A stretch of 36,027 nucleotides of DNA from assembly GCA_026391975.1 (NCBI GenBank), contig JAPLDB010000033.1:1-36027 (forward strand), written 5' to 3'. The notes under the pieces were generated by a model. It made no database searches. It was not told the origin of the DNA and worked only from the letters and a program-made list of their open reading frames with translations. The DNA comes from Bacteroidota bacterium (GTDB lineage: Bacteria; Bacteroidota; Bacteroidia; AKYH767-A; 2013-40CM-41-45). Of the stretch, positions 5,934 to 29,634 are shown one piece after another (positions within the stretch are counted from its first letter, which is position 1; each line of letters begins with the position of its first letter). A program made the position numbers and the translations under genes.

Positions 5934-5953
5934 ATCCCGATAGCTATCGGGAT
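5934..5953. repeat. Perfect 20-bp palindrome, TCCCGATAGCTATCGGGA family copy 1
   Basis: ATCCCGATAGCTATCGGGAT is a perfect inverted repeat in the nusG-rplK spacer. The same 18-base core recurs at 16672-16689 and 29617-29634. It lies inside a spurious upstream extension of the rplK frame. Confidence 0.9.
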
Positions 5954-5990
5954 TGAAAATGAAAAAATCGCTTCCGGGTTAATTCAGTTC

Positions 5991-6015
5991 ATCTTCAAAT
6001 CAGCTTATCTTCAAA
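5991..6015. repeat. ATCTTCAAA short-word pair upstream of rplK
   Basis: Two copies of ATCTTCAAA (5991-5999 and 6007-6015), followed by a shorter CTCAAAT, occupy the 40 bases before the rplK start. The reverse complement, TTTGAAGAT, recurs five times upstream of msrB (25329-25417). Confidence 0.6.
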
Positions 6016-6032
6016 TCCTCAAATTAAAAGCA

Positions 6033-15300: not shown

Positions 15301-16662
15301 GAAGGAACAAAAGAATTTGATGTAGTAATTGGCCGTTCCGGCGAGGTTCGCATCAGTGATGTGAATACCGGTGCAGTACTGACTACGTCAAACATTCCTT
15401 ATGGCTCCAAGCTTTATATAAAGAATCATTCAAAAGTGGAGAAGGGCGACCTGATCTGCGATTGGGATCCGTACAATGCAGTAATCCTTTCAGAAGTTGC
15501 AGGTAAAATTGCTTTCGACAGTATTGAAGAAGGCGTTACCTATCGCGAGGAAAGCGATGATCAGACCGGTTATAAGGAAAAGGTGATTATCGAAACACGC
15601 GATAAGACAAAGAATCCTTTGATCAAGATCATGGGTGAAACCAAGGAAATGATCAAGGGTTATAACATCCCTGTAGGTGCGCACATAATGGTGAGCATCG
15701 GACAGAAGATCAAGGCAGGAGATGTGCTAGTAAAGATCCCTCGTATGGCGGGCAAGAGCGGTGACATCACCGGTGGATTGCCACGCGTTACTGAGTTGTT
15801 TGAAGCACGTAATCCAAGTAACCCTGCTGTGGTTTCTGAAATTGATGGTATCGTATCTTATGGAGGCATCAAGCGCGGTAACAGAGAGATCATTGTTACC
15901 TCACGCGATGGCGAAACAAAGAAATACCAGGTTGCATTGTCGAAACACATCCTTGTACAGGATAACGATTTCATCAAGGCAGGTGATGCACTCAGCGATG
16001 GGGCTATTACTCCGAATGACATCCTTGCGATCAAGGGACCAAGCATGGTGCAGGAATACCTCGTAAACGAAGTACAGGAAGTATACCGTTTGCAGGGTGT
16101 GAAGATCAACGATAAGCACTTTGAGGTTATCGTTCGTCAGATGATGCGCAAGGTGATGATCGAGGATCCGGGCGATACAATGTTGCTTGAAAAAGAATAC
16201 GTGGATCGCGTTGAGTTTATCAAGGAAAACGATGAGATGATGGATAAAGTGGTGGTGATCGAGCCGGGTGATTCAGCAGAATTGAAAGCCGGACAGATTA
16301 TTACGCTCCGTAAATTCCGCGAAGAGAACTCTATGTTGAAACGCAAAGACGCCACGCCGATCGAGGCACGTCCTGCAACACCTGCTACATCCTCACCGGT
16401 GTTACAGGGGATCACACAGGCATCATTACATACGAAGAGCTGGATCTCTGCAGCATCATTCCAGGAAACCACGAAGGTGCTGAATGAAGCGGCAGTAAAC
16501 GGCAAGGTAGATGAATTGCTCGGACTGAAGGAGAATGTAATCGTTGGTCACTTGATTCCGGCAGGCACAGGCTTGAGGGATTATGAGAAGATCATCGTTG
16601 GTTCACAGGAAGAGTATGACTTATTGATGGCTTCGAAGAAGGAAGAAGAATTCGCGAAGTAA
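12370..16662 (+). CDS. rpoC: DNA-directed RNA polymerase subunit beta'
   Basis: RpoC (1430 residues) carries the active-site magnesium loop NADFDGDQ at 472-479, with Asp474, Asp476 and Asp478. The N-terminal zinc site uses C66, C68, C81 and C84 (CHCGKYK, CDRCG); the second zinc site uses C822, C896, C903 and C906 ([15 protein letters not shown]). The double-psi barrel, bridge helix and C-terminal [17 protein letters not shown] are intact. Length fits Bacteroidota beta' and exceeds that of E. coli slightly. It is the last gene of the block: a palindrome and a rho-independent terminator follow within 110 bases. Confidence 0.98.
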
Positions 16663-16671
16663 TCTCATCGA

Positions 16672-16689
16672 TCCCGATAGCTATCGGGA
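16672..16689. repeat. TCCCGATAGCTATCGGGA palindrome, copy 2
   Basis: An exact 18-bp copy of the palindrome at 5935-5952, ten bases after the rpoC stop and before the terminator hairpin. As RNA it could form an 8- to 9-bp stem only with a very tight loop, so a DNA role or a mobile-repeat origin is as likely as an RNA one. Confidence 0.9.
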
Positions 16690-16699
16690 ACGAATCAGG

Positions 16700-16726
16700 T
16701 ACGAAAATACGAAGTACGAATTCGTA
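16700..16726. repeat. TACGAA word array downstream of rpoC
   Basis: Three TACGAA words within 27 bases, ending in an inverted TTCGTA. The 14-mer TACGAAAATACGAA (16700-16713) recurs exactly in both units of the tandem repeat at 24744-24823. Confidence 0.65.
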
Positions 16727-16737
16727 AAATAATAGAA

Positions 16738-16765
16738 GGGCTGCTGAAAGGCGGCCCTTTTCTTT
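16738..16765 (+). terminator. Rho-independent terminator of the tuf...rpoC block
   Basis: GGGCTGC (16738-16744) pairs with GCGGCCC (16751-16757), seven pairs including one G-T, with a six-base loop, followed directly by TTTTCTTT. It is the only clean terminator seen between the promoter at 2765 and the Kelch-like gene. Confidence 0.85.
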
Positions 16766-16808
16766 GCGGGCCTCACCCCAGCCCTCTCCAAAGGAGAGGG
16801 TGTTAAAT
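16765..16808. repeat. GC-rich REP-like hairpin element, copy 1
   Basis: TGCGGGCCTCACCCC is followed by the hairpin CCCTCTCC (16782-16789), loop AAA, GGAGAGGG (16793-16800), then TGTTAAAT. Related copies lie inside the Kelch-like gene (18801-18841), after it in reverse orientation (19118-19147), and as a variant near 29601. It abuts the terminator. Confidence 0.8.
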
Positions 16809-16985
16809 CCTGCAATGAAATTTAATTTTGTATCAGCTTAATGGTTCAGTTTGCCAATGGTCAGTTTAAACTTGAGGTTTCATTTTGAAACCACAAATGG
16901 TATTGTATTGCTGTTTTGGAGTAGTCATTGCGAGGTACGAAGCAATCTTTTCAAATTACCTCTGAGATCTTTTCAAAAATTCTTC

Positions 16986-16993
16986 TAACTTTG
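16986..16993 (+). promoter_or_regulatory. Putative -7 box of the Kelch-like gene
   Basis: TAACTTTG fits TAnnTTTG and ends 11 bases before the ATG at 17005, implying a leader of about five bases. The -33 region (TCTG at 16961) is a poor match. Confidence 0.45.
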
Positions 16994-17004
16994 GTGTACC
17001 AACA

Positions 17005-19104
17005 ATGAAGAAGTTTCTCCTCCTTCTTTTTTTGAATTCTGCATTCTGCATCGTGCATTGTACATTATGTTTTGCACAAAATCCCGGAGAGTGGGTTTGG
17101 CTGCATGGTGATAGCATTACGAACAATCCCGGCAATTTCGGAACACAGGGAATTCCAAGTCAATCCAATGAACCGCCTTCACTTTATGCAGCATGCCAAT
17201 GGACTGATCTAAGTGGAAATTTTTGGTTGTTTGGTGGTGTTCAAGGGTCTGGGGTGCAATATGGTGATCTATGGAAGTATGATCCAATCTCAAATGAATG
17301 GACCTGGATAAAAGGTTCTGGTATTGCAAATGACACAGGTTACTACGGTATTCAGGGCGTAGCTTCTCCGGCAAACAGACCACCTGATATTTCTTGGGGA
17401 GCGTTTTCATGGACTGATTTAAATAATAATCTGTGGATGTTTGGGGGAATTGCTTCCGGATATCGCATTCATAGTGATTTATGGAAATATAATATTTCAA
17501 GTAATGAATGGACATGGGTGAAGGGACCTCATGCGGCCAATCAGCCGGCTGTTTATGGAACGCAGGGGATGCCATCTCCCACAAATAATCCCAATGGTCG
17601 GCAAGAGGTAACTACCCGATGGGTTGACAGTACGGGTAATTTATGGTTGTTCGGGGGCTGTGGAATTGGACTCACCAATCTCAATGATGTATGGAAATAT
17701 GACATTCTTACAAATGAATGGTCTTGGATGAAAGGCTCACAATACTCGAATGACCAAGCAATTTATGGTGTTCTTGGAATTGAAAACAGCAGCAATACTC
17801 CTGATGGACGGTATGCCTGGAGCGGATGGAAAGATAATGCAGGAAATTTTTGGTTGCTTGGCGGATTGGATAGCTTATCGGTAAGAAATGACTTGTGGCG
17901 GTTCAGTCCCAATACGAATAATTGGACATGGATGAATGGAAGTAGCGTTGCAGGAACATTAGGAACCGATGGCACGAAATGCATCCTTGGAACTTTGCAT
18001 TTTCCAAGTGCTACAACTGAATCCCGTTCTGTTTGGACGGATCCGAATGGAGATTTTTGGATTCGTTGCTGGGGATATACCTACTTCACTTCCCTGTGGA
18101 AGTACTGTGTAGACAGCAACGAATGGATGGTCGTCAATGGCGATTCTGTTTACAGTAATTATGGAAGATGGGGAGTAAAAGGAGTATCAGATCCTTCAAA
18201 CATGCCACCAGGGTTGCTGGGTGCAATGAGTTGGTCAGATAGCAATGGTCACCTTTATATGTTTGGAGGAGAAGGCGGACCCTGGTACAACACTTTATGG
18301 ATGTATACGATAGATCCCTGCTGCGGGTCTTGTTCTCAATTTTCACCAGTACAAAGTTTTTCTGTGAGTGATTCAACCATATGTCCAGGAACTTGTATTG
18401 ACGTCAATAATTTTTCTCAATCATACACGTCCTATCATTGGATTTTTTTTCCTGGAGGAAGTCCTTCAACTAGTAGCGATTTCAATCCCCAGAATATTTG
18501 TTACAATACTCCAGGAAGTTATGGCGTAACGCTAATAGCAACAAGATGCAATGGTACTGATACGCTAACACTGAATAATTATATCACCGTTTTTCCGCAG
18601 CCATCATCGCAAGCAATCACCCAAAGCTACGATACGCTTTTTGCAATTGCAGGAACCGGAACCTATCAATGGTATTTCAACAACAACATCATCAGTGGAG
18701 CAACTGATTATTTTTATGTAGCACCGGCAAGCGGAGATTACAATGTTGTTGCAACGGATACGAATGGATGTGAAGTTGAAGCTGCGATTTTCAATGTTAC
18801 TGCGGGCCTCACCCCGGCCTTCACCGAAGGAGATGGAATTAATCTCTACCCGAATCCGGTTACTGATAAATTGATGCTTCATTACTCACAAGCCACAAAT
18901 GGAACATCTCCGCAAGGAGTCCTTCGGACCTATGAAATTTCGATTTACAATATGGTGGGAGAAATAGTTTATTCGGTTGTTGACACCAGACGTCGATCAA
19001 ATGGGAATAAGGAAGTAGACTGTCGTCTTCTTCCATTAGGTGTGTACTGGCTGGAGGTATCTTCGAACGATAATATTTTTCGGGCAAAATTCATAAAACA
19101 ATGA
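17005..19104 (+). CDS. Secreted six-repeat Kelch-like propeller protein with PKD-like region and T9SS C-terminal signal
   Basis: This 699-residue protein has a signal peptide (residues 1-24, ending CFA before QNPGEW). Residues 28 to about 440 contain six repeats of 65-72 residues with the pattern EWTW-x-KG...YG-x-QG...W-x-D...GN-x-WLFGG...LWKY, a Kelch/galactose-oxidase-like beta-propeller; repeat 5 is degenerate. Residues about 444-532 resemble a PKD/Ig-like domain (CPGTCIDVNNFS, WIFFPGG). The end, about 612-699, is a type A T9SS sorting domain (INLYPNPVTDKLML, ISIYNMVGE, LPLGVYWLEV, FRAKFIKQ). It should be exported by Sec, then T9SS, to the cell surface. No catalytic residues are evident; ligand binding is a guess. 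Two palindromic repeats are embedded in frame (18801-18841 and 18908-18929), and the signal peptide is itself written in a CTGCATT-type repeat. Confidence 0.88.
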   Translation: MKKFLLLLFLNSAFCIVHCTLCFAQNPGEWVWLHGDSITNNPGNFGTQGIPSQSNEPPSLYAACQWTDLSGNFWLFGGVQGSGVQYGDLWKYDPISNEWTWIKGSGIANDTGYYGIQGVASPANRPPDISWGAFSWTDLNNNLWMFGGIASGYRIHSDLWKYNISSNEWTWVKGPHAANQPAVYGTQGMPSPTNNPNGRQEVTTRWVDSTGNLWLFGGCGIGLTNLNDVWKYDILTNEWSWMKGSQYSNDQAIYGVLGIENSSNTPDGRYAWSGWKDNAGNFWLLGGLDSLSVRNDLWRFSPNTNNWTWMNGSSVAGTLGTDGTKCILGTLHFPSATTESRSVWTDPNGDFWIRCWGYTYFTSLWKYCVDSNEWMVVNGDSVYSNYGRWGVKGVSDPSNMPPGLLGAMSWSDSNGHLYMFGGEGGPWYNTLWMYTIDPCCGSCSQFSPVQSFSVSDSTICPGTCIDVNNFSQSYTSYHWIFFPGGSPSTSSDFNPQNICYNTPGSYGVTLIATRCNGTDTLTLNNYITVFPQPSSQAITQSYDTLFAIAGTGTYQWYFNNNIISGATDYFYVAPASGDYNVVATDTNGCEVEAAIFNVTAGLTPAFTEGDGINLYPNPVTDKLMLHYSQATNGTSPQGVLRTYEISIYNMVGEIVYSVVDTRRRSNGNKEVDCRLLPLGVYWLEVSSNDNIFRAKFIKQ
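17034..17066. repeat. Short-word repeat inside the signal peptide coding region
   Basis: AATTCTGCATTCTGCATCG followed by TGCATTGTACATT repeats CTGCAT/TGCATT words in coding DNA and translates as NSAFCIVHCTL. The result is still a usable hydrophobic signal sequence. Confidence 0.5.
18801..18841. repeat. GC-rich REP-like element, copy 2, in frame inside the Kelch-like gene
   Basis: The first 15 bases, TGCGGGCCTCACCCC, are identical to those at 16765-16779, and most of the following hairpin region also matches (CTTCACCGAAGGAGATGG against CTCTCCAAAGGAGAGGG). It encodes AGLTPAFTEGDG at residues 600-611, exactly between the Ig-like region and the T9SS signal, a linker that tolerates insertion. Confidence 0.8.
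18908..18929. repeat. Double mini-hairpin insert in the T9SS signal domain coding region
   Basis: CTCC-GCAA-GGAG (18908-18919) is followed directly by GTCC-TTC-GGAC (18919-18929), two small perfect hairpins sharing one G. It encodes SPQGVLR in an otherwise canonical sorting domain, between YSQATNG and TYEISIYNMVG. Confidence 0.55.
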
Positions 19105-19117
19105 AATGAATATTATT

Positions 19118-19147
19118 CCCTCCCTTTGGGTGGGTTAGGGTGGGCCT
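19118..19147. repeat. GC-rich REP-like element, copy 3, reverse orientation
   Basis: CCCTCCCTTTGGGTGGG followed by TTAGGGTGGGCC aligns with the reverse complement of the 16765 element (CCCTCTCCTTTGG, AGAGGG, then GGGGTGAGGCC). It lies between the Kelch-like gene and the DUF3467 gene. Confidence 0.65.
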
Positions 19148-19195
19148 CTGTTTAGAAAATATTCCCGACCTTCACACTCCAATTAAAAACCAACA

Positions 19196-19510
19196 ATGGA
19201 TCAAAATCAAAACCCCAACAACCAGCTCAATATCGAACTCAGCGAAGAAGTAGCGGAAGGAATTTATTCCAACCTGGCAATCATCACTCACAGCAACTCA
19301 GAATTCGTAGTTGACTTTGTAAAGGTGATGCCCGGTGTTCCCAAAGCAAAGGTGAAGGCGCGAATCCTATTGACACCTCAGCATGCAAAGCGTTTGCTGG
19401 CTGCTTTACAGGATAACGTTCAGAAATTTGAAGCTGCACACGGAACGATCAAGCAGACGGAAGGATTCGGAATACCGATGAACTTCGGAGGGCCGACGGC
19501 GCAGGCGTAG
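19196..19510 (+). CDS. DUF3467 family protein
   Basis: A 104-residue soluble protein matching the DUF3467 pattern: IELSEEVAEGIYSNLAIITHSNSEFVVDFVKVMPGVPKAKVKARILLTPQHAKRLL, then a helix (LQDNVQKFEAAHG). The family is common in Bacteroidota as a single-copy small gene; its biochemical role is not established. There is no signal peptide or membrane segment. The ATG at 19196 is preceded by an A-rich leader. It converges on the glutathione peroxidase gene. Confidence 0.85.
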   Translation: MDQNQNPNNQLNIELSEEVAEGIYSNLAIITHSNSEFVVDFVKVMPGVPKAKVKARILLTPQHAKRLLAALQDNVQKFEAAHGTIKQTEGFGIPMNFGGPTAQA

Positions 19511-24912: not shown

Positions 24913-25311
24913 TTACATCTTGTTTATTACCTCCGGTGCGTTGGGTATCTCGCCTGCGGGTATGAATTTCAGACTGCTTGTATTGACACAGTGCCTTGTA
25001 TTCTTTTCCGTGAATTCTTCGCCTTCGAAAACGTGGCCGAGGTGCCCGTTGCAATTACTGCAAACGATTTCAATTCTATGTCCGTCAGCATCAGTGATAC
25101 GTTTTACAGCGCCTGGGATTTCATCATCGAAACTTGGCCAGCCGCAATGGGAATCAAATTTATCCTTGCTTGAATAGAGAGGAGCATTGCACCTGCGGCA
25201 GATGTACATGCCTGCATCTTTCTTGTTGGTGTATTCACCGGTGTAGGGAGCATCGGTTCCTTTGCGGAGGAGGACGCGTTCTTCGGCGGGGGTGAGGTTG
25301 TTGTATTCCAT
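24913..25311 (-). CDS. msrB: Peptide-methionine (R)-S-oxide reductase MsrB
   Basis: MsrB (132 residues from the ATG at 25309-25311) reduces methionine-R-sulfoxide in proteins. The four zinc cysteines are C38/C41 (CRRC) and C84/C87 (CSNC). The catalytic cysteine is C108 in [11 protein letters not shown] and the recycling cysteine is C56 in [14 protein letters not shown] is intact. No signal peptide, so cytoplasmic. A longer frame up to 25446 adds 45 residues, including IFKST-HLQ twice, translated from the TTTGAAGAT array; this extension is rejected. It stands upstream of the E1 gene on the same strand, with about 190 bases of repeat-containing spacer between. Confidence 0.95.
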
Positions 25312-25328
25312 GATGCAAAGTAAATCAA

Positions 25329-25417
25329 TTTGAAGATGTGTAGATTTAAAAATTTGAAGATGTGTTGATTTGAAGATGAGTTGATTTGAAGATTTGAGGA
25401 TGTGAAAATTTGAAGAT
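25329..25417. repeat. TTTGAAGAT array upstream of msrB
   Basis: Five copies of TTTGAAGAT start at 25329, 25353, 25369, 25385 and 25409, with irregular spacing of 16 or 24 bases. The reverse complement occurs twice upstream of rplK. Confidence 0.8.
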
Positions 25418-25511
25418 TGGAATTCCGTAGTACTAAGACGTAGCATTTTTATTCAAATTTTACTTTGGAATAGGGTTAGGTTGCTACGAAGTATGCAGTG
25501 AACAAATTAAA

Positions 25512-29600: not shown

Positions 29601-29634
29601 CTCCCCTTAAGGGGAGTCCCGATAGCTATCGGGA
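29601..29634. repeat. Adjacent palindromes: CTCCCCTTAAGGGGAG and TCCCGATAGCTATCGGGA (copy 3)
   Basis: A perfect 16-bp palindrome (29601-29616) is followed without a gap by the third exact copy of the 18-bp palindrome (29617-29634), then AGGATGGGCC. CTCCCC..GGGGAG plus GGATGGGCC resembles the GC-rich family of 19118 (CCTCCC...GGGTGGGTTAGGGTGGGCC), so the 18-mer may be nested inside such an element. Confidence 0.8.

Follow-up and report, generated by a model that had tools for sequence, protein, structure and literature searches.

Probable origin of a T9SS cargo linker from a dispersed palindromic element that lies in frame in many genes of a Bacteroidota genome

The 17-residue linker in front of the T9SS sorting domain of a Kelch-repeat cargo protein is most probably one copy of a palindromic element that is dispersed through the genome, has spread as DNA and occurs in frame in protein loops and linkers as well as between genes; we put the probability of this reading at about 0.82. 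Comparisons of the copies, of paralogues and of orthologous genes show one family with many in-gene copies in both orientations, absent from the orthologues tested, and a gain at the DNA level after the divergence of the paralogues, whereas we infer the movement of the element itself. This Bacteroidota genome thereby presents the phenomenon of in-gene palindromes at scale, with copies that are mostly intragenic and repeatedly form a linker or loop of T9SS cargo, and its approximately 50 paralogous linkers are a natural set for watching selfish DNA turn into protein sequence.

The element in the window and in the genome

Copies of the element were searched using R1, a covariance model with an 8-bp stem that was built from 20 copies and whose E-values are rough. 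The window, i.e. the whole stretch of 36,027 nucleotides that was analysed, contains the following features:

17005..19104, + strand: ORF of the Kelch-repeat / PKD-like / T9SS type A cargo gene (699 aa), bearing the coding copy
18805..18838, + strand: coding copy in forward orientation, encoding GLTPAFTEGDG(I) of the linker, hairpin eroded
18796..18846, + strand: linker of 17 aa, VTAGLTPAFTEGDGINL, which joins the Ig-like region to the T9SS domain with its initial YPNP
18844..19095, + strand: T9SS sorting domain, Por_Secre_tail, aa 614-697 (PF18962/TIGR04183)
16769..16802, + strand: intergenic copy downstream of rpoC, with an intact 8-bp hairpin
19116..19147, - strand: probable eroded third copy just after the Kelch gene (weak; R1 E=0.035 in the window only)
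25257..25299, - strand: possible eroded copy (weak; R1 E=0.066 in the window only)

The 699-aa protein gave matches to Kelch, PKD-like and Por_Secre_tail models, the PKD-like match being weak and under the curated cut-off, and its TIGR04183 score of 35.4 bits, compared to a cut-off of 23, identifies it as a T9SS type A cargo. The original prediction had placed the coding copy at the joint between the Ig-like region and the sorting signal, and this was borne out: the segment, which translates as AGLTPAFTEGDG, directly adjoins the sorting domain. The DNA shared by the two copies consists of 15 exact leading bases, TGCGGGCCTCACCCC, within an ungapped alignment of 42 nt with 83% identity (16765-16806 and 18801-18842), but the prediction that most of the hairpin is shared was overstated. 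The intergenic copy folds with -19.4 kcal/mol and z=-2.68, compared to z=+0.24 for the coding copy, in which the hairpin is broken and the structure is not being maintained. In the window alone, R1 detected the intergenic copy at E=9.8e-12 and the coding copy at E=7.3e-7, the latter still at E=7.2e-5 in the genome-wide search. No match at a gathering score was obtained for 16600-19200 in Rfam, nor any match in phage records for the intergenic DNA between rpoC and the Kelch gene.

A genome-wide search, for which the absence of other copies had been set beforehand as the refutation, revealed 38 full-length copies at E<=0.005 in the 3.6 Mb of this 239-contig assembly. The hosts of these copies were tallied by reading the ORFs in context and naming the genes by family models. 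Ten copies are the linker before YPNP of the T9SS sorting domain of paralogous cargo proteins, and 16 lie within other genes: one each in alaS, aspS, ileS, leuS, hemB and the genes for pyruvate carboxylase, a saccharopine-dehydrogenase-like protein and a DsbH-like thioredoxin-domain protein, and two each in polA, nuoL, recG and a cytochrome/TPR gene. Another seven are located at gene edges or in ORFs of no named family, including the N-terminus of nuoD and the C-terminus of cysS, and five, among them the copy after rpoC, are intergenic. Weaker copies were detected in valS (E=0.033), purD (E=0.022) and others. Thus, the prediction of one element that is non-coding at one site and coding linker DNA at another holds and reaches at least 26 in-gene sites, but the description of the element as intergenic does not fit a family residing mainly within genes. 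The distance of two kilobases between the two window copies, both of which are real, means little, since nine paralogous genes elsewhere carry counterparts at the linker position.

The short form of the element measures 34 nt; where a nested hairpin is present (CCTCACCCCnnCCCTCTCCnnnGGAGAGGG), the length is about 64 nt, and the overall range is 34-67 nt. The element qualifies as a palindrome by the 8-bp stem in the model and the fold of the intergenic copy. Its consensus, nGCCTCACCCCnACCCTCTCCAAAGGAGAGGGAG, has no GTAG tetranucleotide at the base of its stem and no CGTC tag, and the copies lack RAYT neighbours, so that the term 'REP-like' had to be dropped in its strict sense. By our codon reading, five of the six frames are free of stops.

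Other repeats were noticed alongside. A second palindrome, CCCGATAGCTATCGGG, occurs in the window at 16673-16688, 5936-5951 and 29618-29633. Its 58 forward and 59 reverse pattern matches genome-wide correspond to approximately 55-65 sites, as it is its own reverse complement, and it lies in frame inside the sorting domains of six of the 52 T9SS cassettes (seven sites; L026, L029, L030, L035, L051 and L053). Intergenic GTCATTGCGAGGTACGAAGCAATCTTTT (16921-16950) presumably resembles a CGTC-type REP, in which case the gap between rpoC and the Kelch gene would hold three palindrome families. Non-coding DNA of another Bacteroidota genome (L193; SCSP01000012.1) contains AAGTCAAATCCCGATGGCTATCGGGACAAAAGTCAAAAGT, which is nearly identical to the DNA encoding the first strand of some sorting domains in this genome. 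Intergenic tandem 8-mers (ATTTGAAG-like) are present at 25328-25423 of the window, with an inverted partner 19 kb away at 5981-6024.

Linkers of the T9SS cassettes

The cassette consisting of Ig-like region, linker and sorting domain is strongly expanded, with about 52 distinct copies in this genome (G000) and 87 matches in the relative G006. The element was recognised in 13 of the 52 linkers here, ten times forward and three times reversed, and each of the 13 alignments gave p=0.002 against 500 shuffles, which is the lowest attainable value. Among element-bearing paralogues, identity of fourfold third bases was 0.78-0.83 in the linker versus 0.34-0.46 in the flanks. This similarity of the linkers between saturated flanks indicates that the element was acquired as DNA after the paralogues had diverged, and selection on the protein would not conserve third bases in this way, as opposed to a recent entry or copying of DNA. 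Linkers that lack the element are the most variable segment of their cassettes, with an amino acid identity of 0.32 compared to 0.67 upstream and 0.39 downstream. A BLAST search of all these linkers against other intergenic repeats yielded nothing convincing. Among 395 genomes of the class, only this one and a single further candidate case have an element preceding YPNP.

The median linker length is 17 aa both with and without the element, and the distance from the conserved GC to YPNP is 32 aa here and 28-33 aa in homologues of several relatives. The element has become the linker, as predicted, but the unchanged length suggests that an ordinary linker gave way to it and that the protein was not lengthened. 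Simple insertion is therefore inadequate for the T9SS cases, which need either replacement or insertion plus deletion; our preferred guess is an insertion followed by a deletion under length constraint. With five frames free of stops, in-frame capture would be easy, and the segment before YPNP of T9SS cargo is probably permissive for nearly any stretch of approximately 17 aa, so that the element probably displaced the old linker there and now acts as a flexible spacer. After capture, the palindrome would decay while the reading frame stays open, as is seen in the window copy.

An unlikely alternative is vertical descent combined with gene conversion, according to which a single gain of the element in one ancestral T9SS cassette was passed on to the paralogues; conversion would then have kept the DNA similar, and the remaining linkers would have descended from it by erosion. 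The constant linker length in all cassettes fits this account, as does the resemblance of some other linkers, e.g. AGITVALLGGEGIDL and AGIAPTQFEGEGVYL, to eroded forms. In addition, four of the ten forward linkers are tandem neighbours on C62, form one supported clade and may go back to one event. The paralogue tree, in which 30 of 49 inner branches are open, was too poorly resolved to decide on a common descent of all forward linkers, and the third-base test was used instead. Conversion over very short tracts could likewise explain the similar third bases of the paralogues, but these tracts would have to be limited to approximately 33 bp, given that the flanks are saturated at fourfold sites and the linker is not. 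Moreover, the three reversed copies require separate origins, and independent copies reside in many unrelated genes.

It is far less probable that the peptide AGLTPALSEGEG was kept for a function, e.g. as a processing site, and that its likeness to the intergenic repeat merely follows from this. All ten forward linkers do use one reading frame, but the conserved third bases refute selection on the peptide as the sole cause, the same DNA is used in other frames or on the opposite strand in other proteins (SLSFGEGRGEA, PSPSERVGVR and RPHPLPLSP), and 39 of the 52 paralogues are without a recognisable element. The probability is negligible for a chance likeness between a low-complexity linker and an intergenic hairpin. 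Although the exact identity between the window copies extends over the 15 leading bases only, a 30-nt element pattern with up to three mismatches gave 15 matches in the genome compared to none for the reversed control, and this explanation is refuted by these counts together with the R1 value of the coding copy in the window and the shuffled linker alignments.

Housekeeping genes, relatives and the association with DUF559

Outside the T9SS family, insertion of the element is apparent from comparison with relatives, which belong to different genera, with insert boundaries defined at the protein level. In HemB, the distance between anchors is 7 aa in 13 of 13 relatives and 18 aa here; in AlaRS, it is 11-13 aa in all 30 relatives examined and 29 aa here. 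The insert is therefore absent from these orthologues. When PurD and AspRS are aligned to solved structures, the gaps coincide exactly with the element; the net length change in NuoL is small. The AlaRS element is in forward orientation here and reversed at the identical site in the relative G006, pointing to two separate events at a preferred site.

This genome contains two hemB genes (L221/L279, and L293 on C88) with about 89% identity over the aligned DNA, gaps counted. The site of the element is identical in the two genes, but one has the short form and the other the nested form, the difference being 27 nt inside the hairpin. One copy of the pair has a stop (TAA) in the tblastn reading. 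The distribution of the 30-nt pattern in 61 relatives is patchy, with 12 positive genomes. G006 has 54 copies, most of those examined being located in T9SS sorting-domain loops in both orientations, and copies in G014 lie near the end of the sorting domain.

In RecG of this genome, two inverted copies of the element bracket a DUF559 domain (PF04480). This stretch matches PDB 3hrl, an endonuclease-like protein, and weakly 3r3p, annotated as 'Mobile intron protein' (E=7e-4). Inverted copies also bracket DUF559 in LeuRS of G003 and G046 and in an HsdR-like gene of G048, and a single flanking copy is present in a MetH-like gene of G016 (the HsdR and MetH assignments were made by eye). Several stand-alone DUF559 ORFs are flanked by element copies. 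The inverted pairs are close to DUF559 in L122, L125, L127 and L129, and outer pairs occur in L124 and L126. The DUF559 insert of LeuRS (L127 and L129) follows WIGRSEG and precedes the FTTRPDT motif, a position shared by two families of the class, so that LeuRS, like AlaRS, has a recurring site. It is 66% identical between the two families, compared to 73-82% for the flanking LeuRS, which is compatible both with common descent and with repeated homing.

Considering all DUF559 loci sampled, R1 gave 36 matches at E<=0.05 in 30 loci, about half of which are without detectable copies, whereas none was found at this threshold in 30 Y1_Tnp loci (90 kb) or in 30 AlaRS control loci. These counts weigh against the rather unlikely possibility that RAYT, a Y1 transposase, moves the element, which would then be a REP of the ordinary type, and that the DUF559 neighbourhood reflects hitch-hiking. 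The presence of Y1_Tnp genes in 52 of the 61 relatives leaves room for a RAYT acting in trans, but the two Y1 matches of this genome are weak (E=5e-14 and 7e-4). RAYT was rejected as partner after a search for Y1_Tnp in 61 genomes, with no element nearby. The link between DUF559 and the element is strong as an association and makes DUF559 a concrete candidate mover. On this hypothesis, larger relatives of the element encode the nuclease, which may promote the movement of the element in trans. A search of the open literature, with subscription literature outside its scope, found no report that ties DUF559 to palindromes or describes T9SS linkers of such origin.

More tentatively, and with the odds slightly against it, these cases may represent a class of mobile DNA built around a Vsr-like DUF559 nuclease with inverted palindromes on either side. 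Such a unit would enter essential genes in frame, and its solo palindromes would disseminate within coding DNA, where they supply material for loops of proteins and for linkers of secretion signals.

Comparison with known systems

Rickettsia palindromic elements (RPEs), reviewed in PMC10969869, are palindromic repeats that lie in frame in many unrelated housekeeping genes and between genes, in host proteins that apparently tolerate the inserts; RPEs were first reported with a size of approximately 150 bp (Ogata 2000, 2002, via PMC10969869). As a kind, and by this description, the element is alike in being a palindrome in frame in many unrelated genes and absent from the orthologues tested. It differs by its phylum, by its size of 34-67 nt versus the approximately 150 bp first given for RPEs, by its link to DUF559 and by serving as linker of a secretion-signal family.

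REPs of the GTAG/CGTC type are short, mostly intergenic palindromes in which head-to-head pairs are common, and intragenic REPs are known from several phyla, with DNA polymerase I and tRNA synthetases among the hosts (PMC3733652). The element resembles intragenic REPs as a short palindrome with copies in the genes for DNA polymerase I and tRNA synthetases and with common head-to-head pairs, but, unlike GTAG/CGTC REPs, it has neither tag, was not found near the Y1/RAYT genes sampled and is located mostly within genes.

REPtrons, or RAYT units, consist of a small nuclease-type gene bracketed by inverted repeat copies, with many solo copies besides. The same arrangement is seen for the element, whose inverted copies bracket a DUF559 gene and which has many solo copies besides; the bracketed gene, however, is DUF559 rather than a Y1 HuH transposase. 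The DUF559 domain itself can be compared to EDxHD/Vsr-like homing endonucleases such as I-Bth0305I. The weak match of the RecG domain to 3r3p is a point of likeness, whereas DUF559 differs in being either embedded in frame within a host protein or encoded by a separate ORF with flanking palindromes, and no intein or intron was noticed.
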